From: Verrucomicrobiaceae bacterium
GTDB taxonomy: Bacteria; Verrucomicrobiota; Verrucomicrobiia; Verrucomicrobiales; Akkermansiaceae
Direction: 5' to 3'
Assembly: GCA_027485615.1 (NCBI GenBank)
Contig: JAIXQS010000017.1
Coordinates: 29,519 to 93,518 of the forward strand
DNA length: 64,000 nt
The notes below the pieces were generated by a model, which saw only the letters and a list, made by a program, of their open reading frames with translations, was not told where the DNA came from and did not search any database. This document shows, piece by piece, positions 47,965-64,000 of the stretch; positions within the stretch are counted from its first letter, which is position 1; each line of letters opens with the position of its first letter. A program made the translations under genes and the position numbers.

Positions 47965-49299
47965 ATGCTTGCAATACCCCGTGAGATGCCCTTGGATGCA
48001 GGTATGAGCAGGACAGCAAAGCGAACAAGGATAACTGCAAAAAAGACGGCGGCCACTGAAATTACCATCCGGCCAATTACCCGCGAAAAGGACGGCAGCG
48101 TCTGGGTTACCCATCTTGTTCAAGGTTGGCAGGAAAACGGGAAGTGGATGAGGAGGCAATTCAAAGAGCGCTCAGAGGCCGAGAGCTTCGCCGCCATCAA
48201 GCGGGTGGCAATGGAGAACAAAGGGCGGGCGCAGCAGATGATCCTAAGCACACTCACTCAGGAACAGCATGACCGGGCGGCGGATGCATTCACCCGCTTG
48301 GGAACGACCTACACGCTCCCCGAAGTGGTGGAGTTCTTTCTCAAGCACCATCGCCCGCCGGAGTTCACCATACGTGCCAAGGCCGCATTCGATCTCTACA
48401 TCGACGACAAGGAACGCGATGGCGTTCGCAACCGGACACTGGTTGCCATCAAGAGTGTCCTCAACCAGTTCATCACGGAAACTAACGATCCTTGGATTCA
48501 CGAAGTCACCCCCTCCAGCGTGGAATCCTACTTGCGAGGACTCCGTGCGAAGAACAAAACGGACAAGGCCACTCTGAAAACATGGAACAATTACCGCAAC
48601 GACCTGAACGGATTTTTCTCATGGTGCGCTACTCCCGACGCCGGAACTAACCGACCGTTCACGTTCGAGAACCCGGTGGAAGGCGTCCGCAAGTTCAGTG
48701 CCCGACAAGTGCGCGAGGGACAGAAAGCGAAGCCCGTAACTACCTCAACCCAAGACGTAATCCGGATCTTCTCCACCCTCATGCGGTGGCGTGGTGGAGT
48801 GATGACGCGCTATTTCGCCTACCTCTACTTCGCCGGAATCCGCCCGGATGAATTGAAGCGGATGTCAGCCCGTGAAGCGGAACTGGTGAACCTGAAAACC
48901 CGAACCATCAACATTCCGGCTAACATATCGAAAACGAGACACGAGCGCAGCGTTAGCATTTCCGACAACCTCGCCGCTTGGCTGGCCGTCTCCCCTGCCC
49001 CAATCGTCCCGCCGAACTTCGACCGGTTTGCCAAGCTCACCCGGAAGCATTTCAACCTCTCCCATGACGAGGCGCGGCACAGCTTTATTTCCTACCACGT
49101 CGCAGCACATCGCTCCATCGGCGATGCCGCGCTCCAAGCGGGCAATTCGGAGAGCATTGTGAAGCGCCACTATCTGAGCACCCACACCCGCGAACAGGGC
49201 GATGAATTTTACCGAATCGTTCCAGACCGCGCAGCTAGGAGAGCCGTATTGAAACCTGCTCCAAAGAAAACCAAGACTTCCCACCTGAGAGTGATCTGA
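47965..49299 (+). CDS. int: Tyrosine recombinase/phage-type integrase
   Basis: C-terminal EARHSFISYHVAAHRSIGDAALQAGNSESIVKRHYLS (R..HxxR-like/Y region); FAGIRPDELKRM (catalytic R box). Confidence 0.88.
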   Translation: MLAIPREMPLDAGMSRTAKRTRITAKKTAATEITIRPITREKDGSVWVTHLVQGWQENGKWMRRQFKERSEAESFAAIKRVAMENKGRAQQMILSTLTQEQHDRAADAFTRLGTTYTLPEVVEFFLKHHRPPEFTIRAKAAFDLYIDDKERDGVRNRTLVAIKSVLNQFITETNDPWIHEVTPSSVESYLRGLRAKNKTDKATLKTWNNYRNDLNGFFSWCATPDAGTNRPFTFENPVEGVRKFSARQVREGQKAKPVTTSTQDVIRIFSTLMRWRGGVMTRYFAYLYFAGIRPDELKRMSAREAELVNLKTRTINIPANISKTRHERSVSISDNLAAWLAVSPAPIVPPNFDRFAKLTRKHFNLSHDEARHSFISYHVAAHRSIGDAALQAGNSESIVKRHYLSTHTREQGDEFYRIVPDRAARRAVLKPAPKKTKTSHLRVI

Positions 49300-49302
49300 G
49301 AC

Positions 49303-50145
49303 ATGAAACGAGAAGAACTACTTGTACAAATAGAGAAACTCAACGCCGAGTTCAAGGAGTTGCTCGATAATCCGCGAGCCGATGAGATTTTGTCCAATGA
49401 CTGGCTGCACGATGAAACGCTGTCCATTCCTTCAATAGCACTCATCCAACTAGTGTCCGTTCAGCTTCTCCACATTCAACGTGGCTGGCGCTGGTGCTTA
49501 GTGGCGGGGAACCAAGGCCTATTGGAAGCTATCAGATTATTTTTGAAGGAGTCACGGGGCTACAGCAATGAAATTCGCGAACGTCAGGTCAAAGTGTCGG
49601 TAGCGCGTATGCACATTGCATCGTTTGCCTTCGGACTCAATCAAGACACGCTTGGCTGGTGGCTCGCTAAACAATCATTCCAATTCGATGCCTTTCAAGA
49701 GACGGTGGATCCGCTAGGCAAAAGCCGCCTGGCACGGTATATGTTAGAATTACTGACTCTACGCGCATTTTACTTCAACGATCTCCAACAACTAGAGGGG
49801 CTCTGTGCCATCACCCGAATAGAAAAAGGAAATCGCGAATATCCACTTACATCATCTCAGCGGATCGCAAGAGAGATCTTCGTATGGCTCTCCTTCTTGA
49901 GTGAGAAGCTTGGAAGAAGTCCCTCTATATCGGAAATGAAGATGTTTTTACTACAGATAAATCGAGACTTATCGGATAACGATGTCACATGGTCTCAGGC
50001 TACGAAATTCTACATTAAATGGGATTTAGTCCCCCGATCCAGAAAGACAGACCCCAACCAAATTTTGAAGATTGCCCGAGATGCCAAGAAAGAAGGGCCA
50101 ATGGTGAAAGTGGTTCCAAGCTGGCGGAGAGATCCCAAGTGCTAA
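49303..50145 (+). CDS. Hypothetical protein
   Basis: 280-aa ORF directly after int, lower GC than flanks. Confidence 0.55.
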   Translation: MKREELLVQIEKLNAEFKELLDNPRADEILSNDWLHDETLSIPSIALIQLVSVQLLHIQRGWRWCLVAGNQGLLEAIRLFLKESRGYSNEIRERQVKVSVARMHIASFAFGLNQDTLGWWLAKQSFQFDAFQETVDPLGKSRLARYMLELLTLRAFYFNDLQQLEGLCAITRIEKGNREYPLTSSQRIAREIFVWLSFLSEKLGRSPSISEMKMFLLQINRDLSDNDVTWSQATKFYIKWDLVPRSRKTDPNQILKIARDAKKEGPMVKVVPSWRRDPKC

Positions 50146-50206
50146 AAAAAATAATCTATTCGCTGTAGGTCATCTGACTGCATCTGTCGGTATTTACTCT
50201 CCCCCT

Positions 50207-50431
50207 ATGAGTAACTTACCAACATCACCCGCATACATCGGCATCGAGGAGTGCCGGAAAGCTGTCTTTGGAACTGGCCCTGAAGCCCCGAGCAAGCGGT
50301 CCTGGGACTCCTGGAGAGCCAAAGGCTACTACCCATTCATCCGTGTGGGTAAGAGAATCTTCGCGAACCCTGACGAAGTGAGCCGTGCATTAGCCCGCCG
50401 CTTCAAGGTGAACGCAATCGACACCAAATAA
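50207..50431 (+). CDS. Small excisionase/HTH-like protein
   Basis: YIGIEECRKAVFGTG...SKRSWDSWRAKGYYPFIRVGKRIFANPDEV resembles MerR/Xis-type domains. Confidence 0.55.
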   Translation: MSNLPTSPAYIGIEECRKAVFGTGPEAPSKRSWDSWRAKGYYPFIRVGKRIFANPDEVSRALARRFKVNAIDTK

Positions 50432-50434
50432 AAG

Positions 50435-50463
50435 CCCCTTGCCGATTGGGATCGGACAAGGGG
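50435..50463 (+). terminator. Hairpin after the excisionase-like gene
   Basis: CCCCTTG(c)CGAT-loop-ATCG(g)a-CAAGGGG pairing. Confidence 0.5.
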
Positions 50464-50763
50464 ACTCTCGAAGGTTTGGACACCGCCAGAGTAACACGAC
50501 GATCCCACCGCGCAAGGCCGATTCATTTAATCGCCATGCCAAATAGAAACCATCACGAACACTGTGACGTAAAGCAAGGGGTGCGCGCCATCCTTCAAGA
50601 GCGAGGTTACTTCATCGAATACGAGGAAGGCTACGGTCATGAGATAGAGAACCCGCCAGCCCGCAAGTCATACCGGGAACTAGATCGCCTGATGCAGATC
50701 CTCGATGAAATCGCCGTCGAGAAACATCGTTGTGAAAATTACGAAGAGAAGGGATCACAGTGA
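50446..50763 (+). CDS. Small hypothetical element protein (start uncertain, possibly 50536)
   Basis: Overlaps the following ATPase ORF by 4 nt. Confidence 0.4.
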   Translation: MGSDKGTLEGLDTARVTRRSHRARPIHLIAMPNRNHHEHCDVKQGVRAILQERGYFIEYEEGYGHEIENPPARKSYRELDRLMQILDEIAVEKHRCENYEEKGSQ

Positions 50764-52340
50764 ACGGATCAACCCGAAATGATAGAGGCGGAACAGTTGA
50801 AAATCCGACCCTTGCCGCCATGGAGGATGCTGCCGTCTATGCCGCGCAATCCCTGATTTATTCATGCGCGGAATACGGATTTCACGAAGGGAACTGGATT
50901 TCCCCAGATGCAATGCCCACAGCCCCCTTGCGGAGCGTGGCACAAGTAGTCTGGGAGCAAGTGACCGCAGGAGTGAAAAAATGGGGGAATATCGTTCCCG
51001 CTTTCGGTGACAACGAACCTATGAGGAGGGCTTTCATCGAGTGTTGCTCGGAAATGGGCTATGCCACGGAGCCGCCCCATTGCGCCCGATACGTGGAGAG
51101 GGTGAAGGGATACCAACTGACATGCCGCCGCCGCGAACTTGGGAGTAAGCTCGTATTGGCCGCATCCGACCCGGAAGAGTGGGAAGCCATCACAGCAGAA
51201 ATCGCCAAGATCGAGAATGAAGCCCACGGCGCATCCCGTTCTCTCATGGAACGGGGAGTGAACCACTACCCCACCGAGACACCGCCGGAAACGATCTTGC
51301 TTGGCAATGGCTGGATGCGCCGGGGAGACGTTGCAACATTCATATCCACAGCCGGAGCTGGGAAGTCGGTTGCCGTCACTCAGGCCGCGATGTGTTGGGG
51401 GCTTGGGTTGCCGTATCTGGGAATCGTGCCGCCGCGCCCGCTCCGTGTGATTTTATTCTCAGGGGAGGATGACGGGGTTACAATCGGGCAATGCCGCGAG
51501 GGCTTGCTTGAACACTCCGAAGCCATCACCGGGCGCAAGCTATCAGCGAAAGACCTGGAGCCGCTCTATCGGATGCTAAGGACGGAATTTATCCGTGAAC
51601 ACGTCGGGCATTCCTTCCATCCCCACCTTGCCACGATGCTACGCGAAGAAGCTGCCGACCTTATAATCGTCAACCCGCTTCTTTCTTACCTTGGCGGGGA
51701 GGTTGTAGGTTGTGTTTCGGAATGGATACGCGCCGGACTTATGCCTATCCTGCAATCCAACGGTTGCGCCAGCCTGCTTGCCCATCACACCCCAAAGCTT
51801 GCCAAGGATGGATGGGAGAACACCGACGACACCTATTCAGGAATCGGAGGGGCGGAAATCGCCAACATTCCCCGGAGTATCCTGACAATGCGTCCAACAG
51901 CGGCCAAGGGGCTTTTCGTGGTGAACGTCTCGAAAAGGCAGACAACCGGATGGAAGGATGATTCCGGGAGCTATTGCGCCCACTACTTCGTAAAGCGCAC
52001 CGATAACCCTGAGCGTCCTGCATGGCTTCCAGTAGGCACGGATGAGGCCGAGGACATGATCGCTGAAGGCAAACCCGCACAGAGCAAGCGACAGGCAGGA
52101 GCAACTAAGAAGGTACAGCACGGCGACGTGGTGAATATCGTCCGCCCCCGCCCGGTGGCACAGCAAGACCTGATTGCCCGTCTCGTCGCCCTTCGGGGAT
52201 GCAGCGAGCGCACAGCCCGCGATGCCATCATCGAGGCCGAGGTTGACGAAATCGAGAGCTTCGATGAACGGAACCCGAAGGGCGGAAAAGCTATCAAATG
52301 GCTACGGATGAACCCCGAACACCCACAACTGGCAAAATGA
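50760..52340 (+). CDS. RepA/RecA-like AAA ATPase (replication helicase-like)
   Basis: FISTAGAGKSVAVTQAAMCWGLGLPYLGIVPPRPLRVILFSGEDD; DLIIVNPLLSYLGG; LLAHHTPK. Confidence 0.75.
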   Translation: MNGSTRNDRGGTVENPTLAAMEDAAVYAAQSLIYSCAEYGFHEGNWISPDAMPTAPLRSVAQVVWEQVTAGVKKWGNIVPAFGDNEPMRRAFIECCSEMGYATEPPHCARYVERVKGYQLTCRRRELGSKLVLAASDPEEWEAITAEIAKIENEAHGASRSLMERGVNHYPTETPPETILLGNGWMRRGDVATFISTAGAGKSVAVTQAAMCWGLGLPYLGIVPPRPLRVILFSGEDDGVTIGQCREGLLEHSEAITGRKLSAKDLEPLYRMLRTEFIREHVGHSFHPHLATMLREEAADLIIVNPLLSYLGGEVVGCVSEWIRAGLMPILQSNGCASLLAHHTPKLAKDGWENTDDTYSGIGGAEIANIPRSILTMRPTAAKGLFVVNVSKRQTTGWKDDSGSYCAHYFVKRTDNPERPAWLPVGTDEAEDMIAEGKPAQSKRQAGATKKVQHGDVVNIVRPRPVAQQDLIARLVALRGCSERTARDAIIEAEVDEIESFDERNPKGGKAIKWLRMNPEHPQLAK

Positions 52341-52440
52341 TTCTGCCACTTGCCATTTACCACTTGCCACTTGAACCGGGAGCAACTGGCAAGCAACCCC
52401 CATATACTAATATGGGGTTGCCACTTGCCACTTGTGACCA
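52322..52440. repeat. Cluster of TTGCCACTTG-type repeats with an ATATGGGG hairpin (possible origin)
   Basis: Repeated GCCACTTG/GCCATTT units in direct and inverted orientation; CCCCATAT-ACTA-ATATGGGG at 52398-52417. Confidence 0.55.
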
Positions 52441-52509
52441 GCCCACGCATGAAACACGAACTCAACATTCGCTAGGAACTCTTCGCCCAATTCTTCGCTG
52501 GCGGTATGA

Positions 52510-53238
52510 TTGCCACCCAAAGTTCGGCCTAGCGATCTGTTCGACGTTGCGCCCGTATCAAAAATGTTTGATGCGCCCTATTTAAATCAAGCGAAGCAAA
52601 TGGTGAACAATCGTCATACGGCCATGAAAGACTCCACAACCAAGACGAAAGGAAAAAAGCCCAATGCGCCTGCAAAGCCACGAGAATTGAGCGTCCGAGT
52701 CCAACGGTTTTGCGAAATACATGTGAGCGGATCAAGTCAGGCAGATGCCTACATTCAAGCCGGGTATAAGGTAAGCAAAGAGGATGCTCGCAAGCACGCT
52801 TCTCGCTTGATGACAAATGATGACGTGAAGAGACACATCGCCACCCTGCGCCAGCCACAGACCAAAGCAGCCCTACGAAAGAAGGAGGACAACCTCCGTT
52901 ACCTCGCGGATGTCATCGGGACGGCACTCGTCAACATCGGCCCGGATAGCCCCCTTTGCGTGGAATTTTCCGAGGAACTTATCGGCGGCGGCAACCGTGG
53001 CAAGCTGCGCCGTGGCAAGGCAGCCAGCGGGAACGAGATCACCGAGGTGCCGATCCTGCGCCGCCGGGTGAAAAAGCCATGCCCTCTCCGTGCCATCGAA
53101 ATTTACTCGAAGCTCCTTGGACACTTCGAGCCTGACCGGGTGGAGATCGAGGCGGGGCCAAAGACGCTCCTGAGCATCAAAGAGCGAGCCGCGCAAGTAT
53201 CGTCCGCTCTCATTAGGAAATACGAATCCGGCCAATGA
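52510..53238 (+). CDS. Terminase small subunit-like protein (Terminase_2 type)
   Basis: RFCEIHVSGSSQADAYIQAGYKVSKEDARKHASRLMTNDDVKRHIATLR; C-terminal AIEIYSKLLGHFEPDRVEIE. Confidence 0.7.
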   Translation: MPPKVRPSDLFDVAPVSKMFDAPYLNQAKQMVNNRHTAMKDSTTKTKGKKPNAPAKPRELSVRVQRFCEIHVSGSSQADAYIQAGYKVSKEDARKHASRLMTNDDVKRHIATLRQPQTKAALRKKEDNLRYLADVIGTALVNIGPDSPLCVEFSEELIGGGNRGKLRRGKAASGNEITEVPILRRRVKKPCPLRAIEIYSKLLGHFEPDRVEIEAGPKTLLSIKERAAQVSSALIRKYESGQ

Positions 53239-53438
53239 TCGAGATCCCAGAAATCGTCCAGCGATTCCGCCACATGCTCGATACGAGCAGCGAGGAAGAA
53301 CTGGAGGCACTGGACTACAACTCGCCGGCAGTTCGCTTCGCGCTTTGTCTGGAGATCAAGGAAAAGAACGCCAAGTGGATCCGGCCAGAGCCGAACGTCC
53401 TCCAGTTCCTAATCGAACGTAGCAAATACGACTGTTGA
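53235..53438 (+). CDS. Small hypothetical protein
   Basis: 67-aa ORF overlapping both neighbours by 4 nt. Confidence 0.45.
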   Translation: MIEIPEIVQRFRHMLDTSSEEELEALDYNSPAVRFALCLEIKEKNAKWIRPEPNVLQFLIERSKYDC

Positions 53439-54004
53439 ACAACGGCCAATCCACAATGAAAGCTAAGACTTCAAAGAAAATGACAGCAGACAAGAAGCCA
53501 GCAACTGGCCAACCAACTGCGCGGAAAAGAGGCCGAGAGTTCACATGGACTGACGAGAACATCGCCGAGTATTGCGGACTGATAGCATCAGGTCTTGGAA
53601 TCATAAACATCGGCAAAGAGCATGGATTCCCGCACCCAACAACCGTATACCGCAAGATGGCCGAAGACCCGCACTTCGCTACACGTATCGCGCGTGCGCG
53701 GGAGTGCCAGCAAGAGCGCGAAATGGATCACTGCATCGAACTTGCTGATTCCGCAACCCCGGAGAATTACAACGTCAAAAAGCTCCAAATTTGGGCGAGG
53801 CAATGGAGAGCGTCCAAACTCGCTCCGAAGCGGTATGGCGACAAACTCGACATGACCACCCGCGCCGAGACGCCGCAAGTCACGCGGGAGGACATGATCG
53901 AGATGATGCGGAAATCTCCATCATACCTCGCCCAGATCGAGGAGATGATTGCGGATGCTAAGAAACCAGTCGCCCAGCAGGATACAAAGTCACAAGAGAC
54001 GTAG
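53435..54004 (+). CDS. Second terminase small subunit-like protein
   Basis: IAEYCGLIASGLGIINIGKEHGFPHPTTVYRKMAEDPHFATRIARARECQQ...APKRYGDKLDM. Confidence 0.65.
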   Translation: MNNGQSTMKAKTSKKMTADKKPATGQPTARKRGREFTWTDENIAEYCGLIASGLGIINIGKEHGFPHPTTVYRKMAEDPHFATRIARARECQQEREMDHCIELADSATPENYNVKKLQIWARQWRASKLAPKRYGDKLDMTTRAETPQVTREDMIEMMRKSPSYLAQIEEMIADAKKPVAQQDTKSQET

Positions 54005-54512: not shown

Positions 54513-55061
54513 CTATCGGGGCGTGCCGTTTGGTGGAGTCGGCACACGCACCGGACTCTGACACTTCCCGCTGCCTGAGCTACTGCTAACCACGCGACCC
54601 GAAGCATCGCGTCGAGTGGTGGTCATGGTGCCGGTGCCTTGGGTGCTTTCGGTTCCGGTCAACCGCCCTGAAGCGTCGCGATACTGGGTGCGGCTGCCAT
54701 TGCCCGAGGATTTGCTCGTGGTGGCGCTGCCCGACGTGCGACCGCTCGCATCCCGGTATGTGGTGCGGGACGAACCGGATGAACTGCCCTGCGTGGTCGC
54801 CGATCCTGTAGCCCTTCCGCTGGCATCACGGTAAGTGGTTTGCCCACCGCCGCCCGCGCTTACCTGGGTCGTAGCAGTTCCGATTACACGCCCGGAAGCA
54901 TCGCGGATCACCGCTCGCTCCGTGCTGCCTGCCTGCTTTTGGCGCTCGATGGTCTGAACCACGCGCCCCGAAGCGTCACGAACCACCTCCCGGCAGGTCT
55001 GTGCGCGTGAAACTGTGGAGAGAACGAATAACAACAGGGTAGGGAGCAGGATGGCCTTCAT
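54513..55061 (-). CDS. Secreted RDASGR tandem-repeat protein
   Basis: Signal MKAILLPTLLLFVLSTVSRA, then about six YRDASGR(x)(x)GSATT repeats. Confidence 0.7.
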   Translation of the reverse strand: MKAILLPTLLLFVLSTVSRAQTCREVVRDASGRVVQTIERQKQAGSTERAVIRDASGRVIGTATTQVSAGGGGQTTYRDASGRATGSATTQGSSSGSSRTTYRDASGRTSGSATTSKSSGNGSRTQYRDASGRLTGTESTQGTGTMTTTRRDASGRVVSSSSGSGKCQSPVRVPTPPNGTPR

Positions 55062-56141: not shown

Positions 56142-56720
56142 ATGGAAACATTTGCCCCCGGCGATCGTGTTGTCGCCATCAATACCGACTTATCAGCCCC
56201 GATCTGCCGAATGGAATCCTTGCCGGATGCGTACTCCTTCCCCGACGGGCCGCTGAATGAAAAAACCGTCTACCACGTGGAAAAAGTCAGGTCGGCGGCG
56301 GATGGACATCAGGGTCTCTTCATCACGGGTATCAGGGTCTTCGTTGGAAAACACCACGTGCCCTGGGATAGCAGCCGTTTCCGCAAGGTGGATTTCCTCA
56401 AAGGCCACGTGCCGAAGAAGCGCCGCCGGAAAGTTCCCGAAGCCCAAGGTCATCCCCCGCATCTCCGAGTTCTGGAAGGATCCCGAAGCATTCCGGGGAA
56501 CGGTCGGATGAAAAGCGACTGTAGTTCCCCAATTACAATCATGGATTTGACCTTTGGTGGGAATCATCACTTGCGGGTCATTCATCCGTTTCGCTATGTA
56601 TGGCAGTGGAAAATCAACCGAAAGCCCCATCGAAATTCGCGAACCCAGTATTTTCTAAATCCGGCCTCGAACTCTATGGTCACACCGCAAATCCCAGTTT
56701 CCCTAACGAACCATGAATGA
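56142..56720 (+). CDS. Hypothetical protein, possible frameshift near 56430
   Basis: Plausible N-terminal half; another frame (56257..56511) continues with PKPKVIPRISEFWKDPEAFRGTVG. Confidence 0.35.
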   Translation: METFAPGDRVVAINTDLSAPICRMESLPDAYSFPDGPLNEKTVYHVEKVRSAADGHQGLFITGIRVFVGKHHVPWDSSRFRKVDFLKGHVPKKRRRKVPEAQGHPPHLRVLEGSRSIPGNGRMKSDCSSPITIMDLTFGGNHHLRVIHPFRYVWQWKINRKPHRNSRTQYFLNPASNSMVTPQIPVSLTNHE

Positions 56721-57219
56721 CCTGATCCACCAACTGATTCAGCTCAGGCTCTGTGTGGCGTCCCTTGGCCAAAGGGACAACGCTGGCTGGTGGGATTGCG
56801 AGTTTCTCGACGAAGCAGGCCTTGAATCCCTCGACTACAACTTTCCCAAGTCACCTTTGGCCGCCGGATTCACCGCCACCTGCCTGGCCGCCAAGGGCTT
56901 GCATGACGAGCGGATCGGACGCACTGGTGTCACCCACTTGTTCCGCCTGGAGCCGGAATTGGAAATGCTGGTTCAGCGGGCAGCCTCCCGGGATGCTGGC
57001 GAGATGCTCCGCGGACTTCCATTGGATCGTGCCTCGCGCATGGCAGACTTGGCCGGATTGGCCGGCGAGGAGATCGACACACCGGAAGGCCCTGTCCAGA
57101 TCGGCCTGCTTCCGGAACTCGCCACCCAGCGCGGCGTTGCCGAAATGGCACGGCATTATAAGGCGGGTTTTCGTCTGGGGCTTCGAGTTTTCCCTTATTT
57201 TGCCGCCCGCAGGCCATGA
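56713..57219 (+). CDS. brxE: BrxE-family BREX protein
   Basis: LIQLRLCVASLGQRDNAGWWDCEFL...LEPELEMLVQR; first gene of the coupled BREX operon. Confidence 0.7.
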   Translation: MNDLIHQLIQLRLCVASLGQRDNAGWWDCEFLDEAGLESLDYNFPKSPLAAGFTATCLAAKGLHDERIGRTGVTHLFRLEPELEMLVQRAASRDAGEMLRGLPLDRASRMADLAGLAGEEIDTPEGPVQIGLLPELATQRGVAEMARHYKAGFRLGLRVFPYFAARRP

Positions 57220-58010
57220 CCGATTCCCATCTCGCCCCCTACACCACCAACCTGTCCAAGGCTCAGGGACTGGTTTCAGAAACCATGGAGTTGCTGCCCC
57301 TCTGGCAGCCGGGAATGAGTGCGGCGGATCTGAAGAATATCGTCAAGCAAACCGGCGCGCTCGGACGCGCCACGGATACCCGGATCACCGACATCGTCAG
57401 CCGCGGGTTCGCCCAGCGTTACCTCATCGAGGACGGCCGGCCAGCTACATGGCTCAAGCGCCTGGTGGAAGCTGGCTTGAACCGTAGTGCCGTACATCAG
57501 ATCCTCTTCCTCTACACAGCACGCCACAATGAGGTCTTTCATGATTTCGTAACCGGCGTTTTCTGGCGCAAGGCGCTTTCAGACACCGGTGAGGTGACCA
57601 AGGAGGATGCCCGGGATTTCCTCGAACGCGCCACAGCCTCTGGGCGGATCGCCCCGCGTTGGGCGGACAGCATGATGGAGCGGGTGTCCCGTTACCTTTT
57701 GGGAACGCTCGAAGACTTCCGGATGATCCGTGAGAACCGTCATGGTCGCCGGCAGGCGCAACCCCCGGTCATCATGTCGGAAACCGCGCTTTTCCTCGCC
57801 CACGACCTCCACTTTCATGGCGTCGAGGATCGCAACATCCCCGTTCACAAGGACTGGCTCTTGTTCGGCCTGATGCCTGCGGATGTGATTTCTATCTTGG
57901 AAAAGGAGGCATCCCGCGGCCACCTGGAGATCCAGAACGCCGGCCAACTCTTGCGGATCGAATGGAAATACCCGGACATAGAACAAGTCATCGATGCACT
58001 CACTCACTGA
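57216..58010 (+). CDS. brxA: BrxA (DUF1819-type) BREX protein
   Basis: YTTNLSKAQGLVSETMELLPLWQPGMSAADLKNIV; start overlaps brxE stop by 4 nt. Confidence 0.82.
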   Translation: MTDSHLAPYTTNLSKAQGLVSETMELLPLWQPGMSAADLKNIVKQTGALGRATDTRITDIVSRGFAQRYLIEDGRPATWLKRLVEAGLNRSAVHQILFLYTARHNEVFHDFVTGVFWRKALSDTGEVTKEDARDFLERATASGRIAPRWADSMMERVSRYLLGTLEDFRMIRENRHGRRQAQPPVIMSETALFLAHDLHFHGVEDRNIPVHKDWLLFGLMPADVISILEKEASRGHLEIQNAGQLLRIEWKYPDIEQVIDALTH

Positions 58011-58569
58011 AAAATTCAACGAGCTTCGGCAACACCTCAAAGGCGGCGTCAGCTCCATGAAACAGACGGGCTTTGATCCGGTCTATTACATCGTTTTCCC
58101 GGCGGAGGAGATCCTGCAGGCCAAGCTCATGCTGCCCCAGATCATTGCCCAGCTGAAGCTCGATGGCTACCAGCCGCGAGTCCTGTCGCTCACCGTCATG
58201 CTCAACGAGTGGTTCCGCTCCCACAAACTGCGGGCCGCATGGCAGGCAGGACTGCAGGATGCGGATGATCCCCGCCAGCAATTCCAGCAAACCTTTTCCA
58301 CCAAGCTGGAAAAGGAGCGCATCGTGGCAGACGCGATCCTGGCCGAGTTGGAGTCCTCGCGCAACGAACCCGGAGGCATGCTCATCATCACCGACATCGA
58401 GGCGTTGCACCCATTTCTCCACATCAGCGGCATTGAGCAGCAGCTCAACGGCAAATTCTGCGTGCCCACCGTGGTGCTCTATCCCGGCACTCGCGGAGGC
58501 TTCCACAGCCTACGGTTCCTCGGTATCCACAAGGAAAACGGCAACTACCGCTCCATTCACATCGGCTGA
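57994..58569 (+). CDS. brxB: BrxB (DUF1788-type) BREX protein
   Basis: PVYYIVFPAEEILQAKLMLPQIIAQL...CVPTVVLYPGTRGGFHSLRFLGIHKENGNYRSIHIG. Confidence 0.85.
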   Translation: MHSLTEKFNELRQHLKGGVSSMKQTGFDPVYYIVFPAEEILQAKLMLPQIIAQLKLDGYQPRVLSLTVMLNEWFRSHKLRAAWQAGLQDADDPRQQFQQTFSTKLEKERIVADAILAELESSRNEPGGMLIITDIEALHPFLHISGIEQQLNGKFCVPTVVLYPGTRGGFHSLRFLGIHKENGNYRSIHIG

Positions 58570-58578
58570 TCCACCATC

Positions 58579-61500
58579 ATGAAAATCATACGCGAACTCT
58601 TCGACCAAAAGCGCCCGATTGACCGGCAGATCGTCGCCGTCATCAACTATGCGGCGGATGATGAAAAACTGATCCGTCAGGAAGTCGCCGAATACGAGAT
58701 CACCGACAGCCTCGCCCACCATTACGAGCGCTTCATGAACAATCTCGATGCCGGCTTCAAAGGCGGCGGCGGTCACGAGGTAGGCGTGTGGGTCTCCGGC
58801 TTCTATGGTTCGGGCAAAAGCTCCTTCACGAAATATCTCGGTTTCGCGCTCGATCCCGGCCGCAAGGTCGGCAGCGAGTCCTTTCTGAAATGTTTCCAGG
58901 ATCAAATCCCGGCTGCGCCTTTACGCGCACAACTTGGCACACTCGCGAAGAATTTCCCGGCTACCGTGATCATGATCGATCTCGCGTCAGTGGCATCCGC
59001 CAACGCGGCCAACGATGGCATCTCCCGCATCGCCTATCACAAGGTGCTGGAGTGGGCTGGCTACTCGAAGGACGAGAAAATCTCGTTGCTCGAACTCATG
59101 GTCGAGCGCGACGGCCTCAAGGACGGGTTTATTGCCGGCATTGAGGAGGCCGGTTACACATGGGACGAACTCCAGAACGACCTGCTCGCCGCCAATGCGA
59201 TTGTGAGCCAGGTGGCTTGCAAGCTCTACCCCAAGCTGTGGGCCGACAGCGCCTCCTTCTCCCGCACCAAGGTCGATTCGATCTACGGCGAGGACGAGCG
59301 GCTAAAGCAGATGCTCGATCTCATCGAGCGCCGCACCGGCAACCGGCGTGTCATTTTCATCCTTGATGAGGTCGGCCAGTTCATCGAGGGCACCAACCGT
59401 CTCATCCTCAACCTCCAGGGATTCGCCGAAAACCTCAAGAATATCGGGCAGGGACAGGCATGGATCATAGCCACCGCCCAGCAGACATTGCCGATGGCCG
59501 GCCCGCTCTTCAAACTCAAGGATCGGTTCCCCGACCCGCTGCGCGTTGACATCGAATCCACCGACATCCGGGAAATCACCTACCGGCGTTTGCTCAAGAA
59601 ATCCCCCGAGGCGATCACCTTGCTCAAGAAGATCTTCGGTGATCACTCCGGAGCCATCACCGCCGCCACCCAGCTCAAGAACACCAAACACATCCAGACC
59701 CATCTGGATGCCGATGAGTTCTCCCGGCTCTATCCCTTCCTTCCGCAGCATTTCAATATCCTGATGGAGTTGCTCCGTGGGCTGGCCCGCTCCACAGGCG
59801 GCATCGGACTGCGTTCCACTCTAAAGGTGATCCAGGATGTGCTGGTGGACATCAAGGGCCAGCAAACGGGCACCCACCTCGCGGATATGCCGGTCGGCAT
59901 CCTCGCCACCGCAGACATATTCTACGACACCCTGCGCGCCGACATCGAGCGTGCCAACCGCCCTCTGGTGGAGGCCGTTGCCAAGGTCGCCACCGCTTAT
60001 GGTGCCGGCTCACTACATCACCGTATTGCCAAGACTGTGGCAGTTCTGCAGCTCGTCGAAGGCTTTCCCGTGAGTTCGGAAAACGTCGCCGCAATGCTGC
60101 ACTCCGCTGCCGACGCAACGCCCTTGTTCGAAACCGTGGCCAAGGCTGCCACGGAGATGTGCGACGACAAGGAACTGCCTCTCGAACTCGTGGATGGTTC
60201 CCTGCGCTTCATGAGCGAGGCCGTGGCGCAGATCCTCATCGACCAGGGATCGCTCGTCCCTTCATCGAGCGACCAGCTCACCATCCTCAATGAAATCCTG
60301 CGTGAGCAGATCTTCTCCCCGGAGCCGGCGGCTCGCTTGGAAAACACCAAGAATGTCAAAGCCCAGGTCAAGCTGCTCCACGGCACCATGCCCGTGGCCG
60401 TCACCCATTCGAAGGAGGATGTGGAACTCCATTTGGAGCTAGCGCCTGCCGCAGAAGTGCCTAACCGCATCAAGGATCGCATCAACGATTCACGGGTTCC
60501 TGCCAACCGCAATGTCCTCTATCTCCTCGGCGAGGACACCCGTGAGATCCGCGACACCATCACCCGGATCTACCGCTGTGAGGAAATCCACCGCCGCCAC
60601 CGCACAGAGGCTGCCGAGAAGGAGGTTTCCCAATATATCATCGCCCAGAAAAGCCGCGCAGAGGTTCTGAAGCGCAACCTCGATACCATCCTGCAAAACG
60701 CCTTTCTCAAGGGTTCCTTCGTCTTCCGTGGCACCAACACCGCAGTTGCCACCCGAGGCACCGAGCTGCGCCAAGCCTGCAATGGCCAGCTTGCCCACGT
60801 CGCGGCGGAGGTCTTCCCATCCTACAAGCAGGCTCCGCAGAACCTTGACGCCAATATCGCCGAAAAGCTTTTGCTCGCTCCTGATCTATCAGTGGTTCCT
60901 TCGGCCACCGATCCGCTCGGCATCGTGGACAAAGCCGGCGCGGCCACCAAGATCCGCACCGACCATGCGGCGCTGGTGTCCTTGCTCGACTACCTGCGCT
61001 CCCGTGGCGAGGTGGATGGGCGCAAAATGCTCGATGACTTCAACCGTGCCCCCTACGGCTGGTTCAAGGACACCACCCGCTACCTCGCCGCCGGCCTGCT
61101 CATTTCCCAGTCCATCCGCATCAAGGTGGGTGGCCAGTGGCTCGAAGCGGTCGGCCCCAAGGCTACCGAAGCGCTCAAGAACAACAACAACTTCGCCAAG
61201 ATCGACGTCGCCACCAACGACAAGCAGATCCCGCAGGAAACCCTCAACCGCGCCGCCAAGCGCCTGCTGGATCTCACCGGCGAGAAAGTCCTGCCCATGG
61301 CACCGCGCATCAGCCAGGCGGTGCTGAAACACTTCCCGGCTTTCCGCAATGAATACGCTTCGCTGGCTGTCGAACTCACCTCGTCGAGTTTACCCGGCTC
61401 GCCGCGTGCGCAGTCCCTGTCCAAACGTCTCACCCAGGTGCTCGACCGCGATGCCTCCGACGCCCCTGTCACCCTCGGCGCGGAAGAGGCCTCTCTGGTG

Positions 61501-62199
61501 GATGATCTCTCATGGGCACGCGAAGTCCGCAAGGCGCTCGACAACGAACTCGGCAGGGATGCCGGGGAAGCCGCGACTCTCTCGTCCTCCATCGGGGGTC
61601 TGCCGAAAGTCGGCATACTCGAACAGCTTGTCAGTTCCACCACGATCCTGCGCGATGAGTTGCAGGAATGCCTCGCCCGTGAGGACTTCTACACCGTCGC
61701 ATCGGACATCCGGAATCGCCTGACCGCCCTGCGCGAGCAGGTCAAGTCGGCCGCCAGCGGGCTGGGACAGGAAATCGCCGCCCACCTTGATGGCCAACGC
61801 GAGTCCATCATGAACATGCCAGAGTGGAGCGAACTCCCGGCGGATGACCGCTCCGAGTTTTCCGGTCAACTGGATGGAACAACCCTGCCCGAAGCCACCG
61901 ACATCGCCGGCATCCGCAACCTGCTCAACCGCCGTATGGAGTTGGATTCCAACCTCTCCCAGATCCGCAGCTCCGTCCTTGATCGCCACAAGAAACGGCA
62001 GGAGGTAAAGATTCTCCCTCCGCCCCCAGAACAGGATCCCACAAAGCTAAGTTCAAACACTCCCGCCAAAGTCCGCTTCCGTAAGTCCTACCTCAAACAA
62101 GACTTGCCTCACCTCGAAAAATCCCTCGCCCAACTCGACGAGGCCGTCACCTCCCTCAAGAAGGAGGATGTCGTCGAGATCCAACTCAATCTCGACTGA
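58579..62199 (+). CDS. brxC: BrxC, BREX P-loop ATPase
   Basis: VGVWVSGFYGSGKSSFTKYLGFAL Walker A; RRVIFILDEVGQFI Walker B-like; 1206 aa. Confidence 0.92.
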   Translation: MKIIRELFDQKRPIDRQIVAVINYAADDEKLIRQEVAEYEITDSLAHHYERFMNNLDAGFKGGGGHEVGVWVSGFYGSGKSSFTKYLGFALDPGRKVGSESFLKCFQDQIPAAPLRAQLGTLAKNFPATVIMIDLASVASANAANDGISRIAYHKVLEWAGYSKDEKISLLELMVERDGLKDGFIAGIEEAGYTWDELQNDLLAANAIVSQVACKLYPKLWADSASFSRTKVDSIYGEDERLKQMLDLIERRTGNRRVIFILDEVGQFIEGTNRLILNLQGFAENLKNIGQGQAWIIATAQQTLPMAGPLFKLKDRFPDPLRVDIESTDIREITYRRLLKKSPEAITLLKKIFGDHSGAITAATQLKNTKHIQTHLDADEFSRLYPFLPQHFNILMELLRGLARSTGGIGLRSTLKVIQDVLVDIKGQQTGTHLADMPVGILATADIFYDTLRADIERANRPLVEAVAKVATAYGAGSLHHRIAKTVAVLQLVEGFPVSSENVAAMLHSAADATPLFETVAKAATEMCDDKELPLELVDGSLRFMSEAVAQILIDQGSLVPSSSDQLTILNEILREQIFSPEPAARLENTKNVKAQVKLLHGTMPVAVTHSKEDVELHLELAPAAEVPNRIKDRINDSRVPANRNVLYLLGEDTREIRDTITRIYRCEEIHRRHRTEAAEKEVSQYIIAQKSRAEVLKRNLDTILQNAFLKGSFVFRGTNTAVATRGTELRQACNGQLAHVAAEVFPSYKQAPQNLDANIAEKLLLAPDLSVVPSATDPLGIVDKAGAATKIRTDHAALVSLLDYLRSRGEVDGRKMLDDFNRAPYGWFKDTTRYLAAGLLISQSIRIKVGGQWLEAVGPKATEALKNNNNFAKIDVATNDKQIPQETLNRAAKRLLDLTGEKVLPMAPRISQAVLKHFPAFRNEYASLAVELTSSSLPGSPRAQSLSKRLTQVLDRDASDAPVTLGAEEASLVDDLSWAREVRKALDNELGRDAGEAATLSSSIGGLPKVGILEQLVSSTTILRDELQECLAREDFYTVASDIRNRLTALREQVKSAASGLGQEIAAHLDGQRESIMNMPEWSELPADDRSEFSGQLDGTTLPEATDIAGIRNLLNRRMELDSNLSQIRSSVLDRHKKRQEVKILPPPPEQDPTKLSSNTPAKVRFRKSYLKQDLPHLEKSLAQLDEAVTSLKKEDVVEIQLNLD

Positions 62200-62236
62200 T
62201 TTGCTGCCGTTTAATCAGAACATCTTCGATTTTCAC

Positions 62237-63079
62237 ATGTTCCATTTACTTGTTAGTGCGAGAGGTTGGCGGCCTACAGGAGATTCGTTGGGGCATGATC
62301 GGATCTTCGAATATACGGAAGACGCGTTGGTAACCCGGTTTAAACCGGACGGCAGGCTGAACATGGAGGAGGTGAGAGTTCACCCAGCCGTATTCGTCGC
62401 TGAAACCAACGGAAGTGGTGATGACCTCGCGAGGGTTGGATACATACAGCGAGTCACCCCACTGGGCAGAGAAGTCAGAATTGAATACGCCTTTGATTCC
62501 AACGTGCCTCCCATTACGCACGATGAGTTCAGGTCGCTTGCTGCCGACCTTCAGATTTCGTCATTCGAACTCAATCGCACTCACTGGGCTATCAAGGATG
62601 TTGATCTTTTCAAAGTCCTGCACGCGAAACGAATTGGCCGGCCGCTTTCTCCGACCGTCTTTTCCTTTGCGGATTTGACCCGTCCCCAAGACGATCTCAT
62701 CTCCGTTATGATGCCTTTTGCGCCGCAATTCACGCAGGTGTATGAGGCGCTAAAGGCCGTCGCGTCAGAACTCGATTTGAAATGCCTCAGAGCTGACGAC
62801 ATTTGGGAGAATGCCGCTGTCATTCAGGATGTCGTCTCTCTGATCTGCCGTTCAAGAATCGTTGTGTGCGACTGTAGCGACCGGAATCCCAACGTTTTCT
62901 ACGAAGCCGGAATTGCTCACTCACTTGGCAAGGATGTGATTCTGATCGCGCAATCGAAAGGTGACATTCCATTCGACCTCCAGCACTTGCGCTACGTCAC
63001 CTACAAGAACAACGGTGAGGGGGTGCAACAGCTCCAGGCTGAGCTTCGACCAAAGATCAACCAACTCATTGGTTCGTGA
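62237..63079 (+). CDS. TIR/nucleoside-2-deoxyribosyltransferase-like protein embedded in the BREX operon
   Basis: LISVMMPFAPQFTQVYEALKAVASELDLKCLRADDIWENAAVIQDVVSLICRSRIVVCDCSDRNPNVFYEAGIAHSLGKDVILIAQ. Confidence 0.78.
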   Translation: MFHLLVSARGWRPTGDSLGHDRIFEYTEDALVTRFKPDGRLNMEEVRVHPAVFVAETNGSGDDLARVGYIQRVTPLGREVRIEYAFDSNVPPITHDEFRSLAADLQISSFELNRTHWAIKDVDLFKVLHAKRIGRPLSPTVFSFADLTRPQDDLISVMMPFAPQFTQVYEALKAVASELDLKCLRADDIWENAAVIQDVVSLICRSRIVVCDCSDRNPNVFYEAGIAHSLGKDVILIAQSKGDIPFDLQHLRYVTYKNNGEGVQQLQAELRPKINQLIGS

Positions 63080-63132
63080 ACCGAACCTGAAAACGAGCAA
63101 ACCACTTCTCTGATCACTTTCCGCTTCTCCCA

Positions 63133-64000
63133 ATGTCCTTCGACCAAAAAACCCGCAACCTGCTCCAGCGCACCGTCAGTGCCTGCCGCAAGATCCTCGA
63201 CGACGAGTTCGCCTCCCAGCGTCGTGAGATCTTCGGTATCAATGACGACGGCACCGCCGCGCCGCTGGAATTGCTCGGGCACTTGCCGGATGAGGACATG
63301 CAGACCGCCAAACTCTTGCGCGACCGGCTCGACCACCTCGTCGTCGGCCTCACCGCACACGGGAAAAAGGAAGCGGATGCCCGCAAGGAATCCGTCGGCC
63401 GCCTGACCCGCGAGCTGGCCTTCACCGTGCTGAACCGCCTCGCCGCCCTGCGCATGGCGGAGGAACGCGAAATCGTGCTCGAATGCGTGCGCCACGGTCT
63501 CCAGTCCGAGGGCTTCCTGCTCTTCCAACAATCCGCCGGCGGTGCCTTCGGCGACAGCTACCACAGCTACCGCGCCTATCTGTTCGTGCTCTTCGATGAA
63601 CTCGCCATCGACCTCGGCGGCCTCTTCAGCCGCTGGGATCCCGCTGGCCTCTTGTTCCCCGGTTCGGAGGCATTGGAAGCCGTGCTCCACGAACTCAACG
63701 GCTCCGGCAGCGCCGCCGCCCGCGACAACCTCACGCCGGATCAGTTCAACGCCATCTGGAGCGAGGACGAGACCATCGGCTGGATCTATCAGTATTACAA
63801 CGATCCCGCCGAGCGGAAGAAGATGCGCGATGAATCCGCCGCCCCGCGCAACAGCCGGGAAATGGCCGTCCGCAACCAGTTCTTCACGCCCCGCTACGTC
63901 GTCGAGTTCCTCACCGACAATAGCCTGGGCAGGCTCTGGTATGAGATGACCAAGGGCAAGACCGCACTAAAGGATCGCTGCCGCTACATGATCCGGAGAC
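63133..64000 (+). CDS. pglX: PglX, BREX adenine-specific DNA methyltransferase (N-terminal part; runs off window)
   Basis: Open frame from ATG 63133 with no stop: MSFDQKTRNLLQRTVSACRKILDDEF...NQFFTPRYVVEFLTDNSLGRLWYEMTKGK. Absent from the ORF track because it has no stop in the window. Confidence 0.85.
   Translation, partial: MSFDQKTRNLLQRTVSACRKILDDEFASQRREIFGINDDGTAAPLELLGHLPDEDMQTAKLLRDRLDHLVVGLTAHGKKEADARKESVGRLTRELAFTVLNRLAALRMAEEREIVLECVRHGLQSEGFLLFQQSAGGAFGDSYHSYRAYLFVLFDELAIDLGGLFSRWDPAGLLFPGSEALEAVLHELNGSGSAAARDNLTPDQFNAIWSEDETIGWIYQYYNDPAERKKMRDESAAPRNSREMAVRNQFFTPRYVVEFLTDNSLGRLWYEMTKGKTALKDRCRYMIRR

Follow-up and report, generated by a model that had tools for sequence, protein, structure and literature searches.

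The 64,000 nt stretch of DNA analysed here (the window) includes part of a BREX operon, in which brxE, brxA, brxB, brxC, an additional gene and pglX follow one another in that order, all on the forward strand. The additional gene encodes a protein here designated P0001. The features discussed below are:

56713-57219, + strand, brxE (BrxE family model NF033447, 7e-33)
57216-58010, + strand, brxA (5e-72)
57994-58569, + strand, brxB (1.5e-41)
58579-62199, + strand, brxC, the upstream neighbour (PADLOC BrxC, E=0; NF033441, 698 bits, cut-off 400)
62200-63132, + strand, 933 nt insert from the brxC stop to the pglX ATG (brxC and pglX are near-contiguous in the related locus L080)
62237-63079, + strand, open frame for P0001, 280 aa plus stop, a two-domain candidate abortive-infection effector
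62237-62641, + strand, N-terminal domain of P0001 (residues 1-135), a proposed sensor or regulatory module shared with other effector proteins
62696-63076, + strand, predicted C-terminal NDT/TIR-like N-glycosidase domain of P0001 (residues 154-280; Foldseek, PADLOC and hhalign)
62903-62905, + strand, codon of Glu223, the candidate catalytic residue, in NPNVFYEAGIAH (invariant in 21/21 sequences and aligned to the NDT Glu)
63133-64000, + strand, 5' part of pglX, the downstream neighbour (PADLOC PglX, 1.4e-119; continues on contig C70)

The P0001 gene is separated from brxC by 37 nt (62200-62236) and from pglX by 53 nt (63080-63132). This arrangement had been proposed in an initial annotation of the window, and the matches of the neighbouring genes to curated models confirmed it. 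The start at 62237 was retained over a longer alternative that begins at an ATG at 62168, because the latter lies within brxC and because, when aligned, relatives of P0001 start with MF(N/H)L at the residue encoded at 62237. Neither a promoter-like site nor a forward-strand terminator-like site was found in 61900-63400 and, as there is no promoter-like site in this interval, the P0001 gene is probably transcribed together with the BREX operon. The gene also has a lower GC content than the genes around it, as had been noted initially. Its GC content is 52.1% and its GC3 58.6%, below all of the neighbouring genes (58.5-63.5% and 67.9-85.1%, respectively). When brxC was examined in stretches of 840 nt, GC3 was 73-81%, never falling below 73% and exceeding that of the P0001 gene in every stretch.

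Upstream of brxE, a tyrosine-recombinase-like gene (47965-49299) is followed by genes for a RepA-like ATPase and a terminase-small-subunit-like protein (to 54004). Read by eye, 47965-54004 gives the impression that the BREX operon lies within a phage-derived or mobile island. The protein encoded on the reverse strand at 54513-55061 begins with what resembles a signal peptide and consists of RDASGR-type repeats.

The window ends where its contig ends, and the other parts of the BREX system were located on further contigs of the same genome. The 3' part of pglX is on contig C70 and pglZ is on contig C127, where it adjoins brxL (BrxL match 9.7e-248). We join these pieces into one system on the basis of the genes that they carry rather than of overlapping sequence. 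The initial annotation had set the system against the core order of BREX type 6, but the BrxE-family protein in the window scored just 24.5 bits against the BREX_6_BrxE model NF033448, for which the cut-off is 80. With BrxE below the type 6 cut-off and BrxL encoded beside pglZ, the system is type-1-like rather than type 6.

Upstream of pglZ on C127, a HEC-05 gene (L091:12465-14264) is present as two frames of 121 and 469 aa, the first of which has, by eye, a DUF262/GmrSD-like start. In L080, a BREX locus from another genome of the same order, the HEC-05 gene is a single 606 aa frame (L080:12663-14483), and the copy on C127 is possibly a pseudogene. The genome that contains the window also carries a second BREX locus (L082:677-17648, on contig C9) with brxC, pglX, pglZ and a brxL-like gene. 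Between pglX and pglZ of this second locus are a gene pair encoding a PDC-M38A ATPase (AriA/AbiL-like) and PDC-M38B, and a Fic-like (SoFic/PDC-S04) gene.

P0001 could be aligned over its full length with 20 relatives that were 40-54% identical to it. The closest (54%) was from a Chloroflexi MAG and the next were mostly from Proteobacteria. The initial annotation had described a C-terminal NDT/TIR-like fold with the motifs VMMPF, RADDI and DRNPNVFYEAGIAHSLGK, and all three are present, at residues 157-161, 185-189 and 215-232, respectively. Across the alignment, the motif NPNVFYEAGIAHxLG(K/R) is near-invariant and E223 is found in 21/21 sequences. When an AlphaFold2 model of P0001, built with the 21 sequences (pLDDT 87.6, pTM 0.77), was used to query the PDB with Foldseek, the top match was an NDT (8qc0, E=2.6e-4), followed by SPARTA TIR-APAZ (6.5e-4) and the SARM1 TIR (8.9e-4), with DNPH1 and the CMP N-glycosidase BcmB lower down. 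The TM scores were modest (approximately 0.35 by query length), as just half of P0001 aligns, and do not separate NAD+ from deoxynucleoside substrates. The PADLOC TIR effector model also matched P0001 (E=7e-9), and hhalign aligned the C-terminal half with the NDT family (P=5e-4), placing E223 on the NDT Glu. The Glu with the following ExGxAxxxGK that marks the NDT/TIR/DrHyd class is present. Judged by the model and these alignments, the C-terminal half is predicted to have the Rossmann-like fold of the NDT/TIR/DrHyd class, with the Glu in the anticipated position.

P0001 had no Pfam match at E<=1, including to the NDT (PF05014) and TIR models, and no Pfam match to DUF4062; a C-terminal relative in L022 matched PF05014 with E=0.004, which is below the cut-off. 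Sequence-only searches of the PDB with either half of P0001 returned nothing meaningful. We rejected the idea that the C-terminal half is a canonical TIR_2 or SEFIR domain, as hhalign was negative. This half is itself portable, as in L022, where it is preceded by an AbiJ_NTD5 domain.

In NDT and DNPH1, an active-site Tyr sits at strand 1. This Tyr is hydrogen-bonded to the catalytic Glu and is tied to a preference for 2'-deoxy substrates, and in TIRs that cleave NAD its place is usually taken by Phe or Ala (PMC11204291). There is no Tyr in residues 152-161 of any of the 21 sequences, which favours, but does not prove, a ribonucleotide such as NAD+ as the substrate of P0001. The C-terminal domain could instead be a nucleoside or nucleotide N-glycosidase of the dNMP/CMP type (cf. 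DNPH1 and BcmB), which would deprive phage of DNA precursors and would not be an NADase. The rank of NDT as best Foldseek match, the presence of DNPH1 and BcmB among the further matches and the hhalign result are all consistent with such an enzyme. However, we consider it unlikely, as the putative strand 1 has no Tyr, which sets it apart from NDT and DNPH1 (PMC11204291), and as the proteins that share the N-terminal domain of P0001 carry NAD-type domains.

No Pfam or NCBIfam model matched residues 1-135, which include the motif (S/N)R(T/N)HWA(I/V)KDVDL, seen as RTHWAIKDVDL in relatives. The same domain was found joined to FRG (L024, L039, L040 and L042), to a CAP12/PCTIR (PycTIR-type) TIR (L025 and L027), to TIR_2 (L026 and L038) and to SEFIR (L037). 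An independent phage family, phrog_4962, matches the N-terminal region of P0001 and of the proteins in L027, L037, L038 and L042, which differ in architecture. In IMG/VR, 33 contigs include the domain. One copy is truncated, and in the 32 that are complete and readable the partner is always one of five effector classes, namely FRG, PCTIR, TIR_2, SEFIR and NDT-like (32/32). A further 299 plasmid records matched the domain.

When 73 copies of the N-terminal domain were placed in a tree, the five classes required eight label changes, where the minimum possible is four. The NDT class has at least two origins on well-supported branches, and the NDT-like proteins of L019 and L020 group, also on well-supported branches, with TIR_2 proteins. 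Thus, the N- and C-terminal halves have been exchanged between proteins, which amounts to effector swapping. TIR and DrHyd domains have been described as consuming NAD+ in immunity, and FRG as a possible NADase (PMC9503650). As the N-terminal half is common to NAD-type effectors, it is, judging by these architectures, probably a portable sensor, and NAD+ is, by analogy, the likely common target of the effectors joined to it; for FRG and SEFIR, NADase activity is in part a prediction. Alternatively, the domain may be an oligomerising or localising module. Its occurrence in four further effector classes was missed in the initial annotation and is the strongest clue to the mechanism of P0001.

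Modelled separately, the N-terminal half had a pLDDT of 93.9. Its top Foldseek matches in the PDB were nearly all PUA-like barrels (Lon-N, ASCH and cereblon Lon-N), and ASCH/DUF3850 proteins ranked high in a viral library. The PUA-like matches were weak, all with E>=0.04 and TM scores of approximately 0.3. An EVE domain was rejected, with an hhalign probability of 2.3%. From the model, it is possible that the domain has a PUA-like fold and recognises modified bases or nucleotides. Modification-dependent nucleases have PUA-superfamily domains as their sensors (PMC7897488), and with such a reader P0001 would be a modification-dependent (type IV-like) suicide system. This reading is compatible with a sensor-effector role for P0001 and would specify what the sensor is, but with matches as weak as these, and with EVE so poorly aligned, we give it a low probability.

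The site occupied by the P0001 gene is empty in L080. The L080 brxC is 77% identical to that in the window and the brxE-A-B-C-pglX order is kept, but just a few nt, and no gene, separate brxC from pglX. A search of 387 further genomes from the phylum gave C-terminal relatives only and no full-length copy of P0001. Taken with the low GC content, the empty site and the absence of a full-length copy elsewhere in the phylum uphold the later insertion that had been suggested initially. No target-site duplication or insertion-sequence signature was found flanking the insert.

A further 11 loci from the same phylum show both brxC and pglX. The junction between these genes is empty in five (L080, L081, L082, L191 and L192), and extra genes are present in the other six (L185, L186, L187, L189, L190 and L193). 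These extra genes are mutually unrelated, save for one pair. The junction proteins in L185 and L187 are AlbA_2/Schlafen-like by eye and have one relative in the PDB, which is of unknown function. In L186, the gene for an ABC-type ATPase is next to a nuclease-like gene, and four-helix and other genes are also found among the cargo. In L188, a Fic protein gene follows brxC, but no pglX was seen and this locus is not among the 11. In this phylum, the brxC-pglX junction is a variable cargo slot. As stated initially, the canonical order lacks such a gene here, but the junction often holds other cargo (6/11). The P0001 gene itself is absent from L080-L082 and from nine other BREX-type loci, and its presence in BREX is a single case.

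Auxiliary nucleases embedded in BREX loci, Schlafen, OLD/TOPRIM and GmrSD among them, are covered by a 2026 survey, whose main text says nothing of TIR, DrHyd or deoxyribosyltransferase (PMC12839542). Lying inside the core operon, the P0001 gene is in the position of a BREX-embedded backup effector of the published kind (PMC12839542). The second-layer effector role put forward in the initial annotation is therefore plausible by analogy, given the cargo slot and the backup effectors embedded in published BREX loci (PMC12839542).

We examined the surroundings of 73 loci that encode the N-terminal domain, the C-terminal domain or both, in stretches that vary in length, some of them short. None (0/73) has BREX genes, which does not bear out the specific partnership with BREX that had been envisaged. 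Of the two associations by which the initial annotation was to be judged, with BREX and with other defence genes, the second was found, in or beside restriction-modification (RM) operons (L019, L020 and L031) and at other loci. In L019 and L020, the gene is between the methyltransferase (MTase) and UvrD helicase genes of type III RM operons, and in L031 it directly follows a dcm-vsr-type II restriction endonuclease (REase) operon. Further relatives adjoin AriA-like or PDC genes, and L036 has TIR and caspase genes as neighbours. In L032, L033, L035 and L037, the gene is beside plasmid rep/par genes (ParA, RepABC, RepB and ParM). Mobile settings of the relatives include plasmids, prophage contigs and RM operons.

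In the RM operon in L020, an extra gene of the PDC-S11 family (L020:5977-6897) separates the type III REase gene from the MTase gene, whereas the two are adjacent in L019, and so the L020 operon includes two cargo genes (PDC-S11 and NDT-like). A toxin-antitoxin pair was considered and rejected, as the short ORFs found upstream of many copies have no similarity to one another. No conserved partner gene was found among the relatives and, with contexts this varied, the gene content points to a single-gene system that would travel alone and sometimes be taken up by DNA-modification operons.

P0001 could still be coupled to BREX as a fail-safe, its N-terminal domain keeping watch on BrxC, on PglX or on a BREX inhibitor made by phage, and firing the NDT/TIR-like domain only if BREX is blocked. 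PARIS, which responds to Ocr, is the model for this arrangement. The same-strand site between two core genes, with no promoter-like site, would suit it, as would the other cargo held in the brxC-pglX slot and the PARIS-like and other backup effectors known in BREX (PMC12839542). However, the lack of BREX genes at all 73 related loci, the non-BREX settings of the closest relatives and the 77% identical BREX in L080 that does without the P0001 gene make such coupling quite unlikely. It is very unlikely that the gene is a passenger or plasmid-stability gene, inserted by chance and tolerated with no role in defence, as its sporadic distribution, the several plasmid copies beside rep/par genes and the single BREX case could suggest, because the active site is conserved across 40-54% identity, swapping takes place among immune-type effectors and several loci have defence or RM neighbours.

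NAD+ hydrolysis has been reported for the NDT-like effector of Retron-Eco1 (Ec86). Like P0001, that effector combines an NDT-like toxic domain with a second domain for targeting or sensing (PMC8989520). Its NDT domain is N-terminal and its DNA-binding domain C-terminal, and it needs the RT and msDNA, whereas P0001 has the reverse domain order, an unrelated partner domain and an operon with no RT. Single-gene TIR effectors and those of CBASS and Pycsar (CAP12/PycTIR, SpbK) share with P0001 a fold of the TIR/DrHyd class and a catalytic Glu, and CAP12/PCTIR and TIR_2 domains are found on the sister architectures that share its N-terminal domain. P0001 differs from these effectors in having no CD-NTase partner and a different sensor, and its C-terminal domain resembles NDT more closely than it does canonical TIR. 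The FRG proteins of P2-like phages (phrog_4962; Escherichia virus P2_2H1 gp44) have the N-terminal domain of P0001, but their C-terminus is FRG (ART superfamily) rather than NDT-like. The Swarozyc/DUF4062 TIR-like NADases resemble P0001 in having a distant TIR/NDT-like domain, a conserved Glu and auxiliary domains, though they belong to a different family with different partners (PMC13174449). Finally, the BREX-embedded backup effectors (PARIS AriA/AriB, GmrSD/BrxU, Schlafen and HEPN) are, like the P0001 gene, accessory genes within the operon that are interchangeable between loci; those listed in the survey are nucleases, whereas P0001 is predicted to be NDT/TIR-like (PMC12839542).

We conclude that P0001 is probably a semi-autonomous abortive-infection effector, with NAD+ its probable substrate, that rides as BREX cargo. 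We put the probability that it is a self-contained, single-protein effector of this type, with an N-terminal sensor and a Glu223 N-glycosidase, carried as cargo by BREX, at roughly 60%. Before infection, residues 1-135 would keep the C-terminal domain inactive. Binding of an infection-related ligand to the N-terminal half would then release or assemble the C-terminal half, and Glu223 would attack the ribosyl C1 of NAD+, or of a related nucleotide, and cleave the N-glycosidic bond. With NAD+ or another ribonucleotide cofactor lost, the infected cell would stop growing or die before phage release. Probably produced from the BREX transcript, P0001 would act when BREX is overrun, probably with no need of the BREX proteins.

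The gene is well conserved and real, and its sensor-like domain and the cargo slot are of more interest than a BREX-specific link, which the evidence opposes. More tentatively, the N-terminal domain may be a new general sensor of phage infection that is wired, in bacteria, plasmids and prophages, to five kinds of NAD-attacking enzyme, and the brxC-pglX junction may be a loading dock of BREX that here has received its first NAD-type module. If so, an NAD-type effector would join the list of BREX backup systems, those listed in the 2026 survey being nucleases (PMC12839542). A previously undescribed domain, found in the 299 plasmid records and in prophages, would also gain a name and, probably, a role as the common trigger of five effector classes. 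As the same N-terminal domain is present on FRG, TIR and SEFIR proteins of Escherichia coli plasmids and P2-like phages, what it senses can be addressed in laboratory E. coli, and identifying its trigger once would account for the whole set of effectors.
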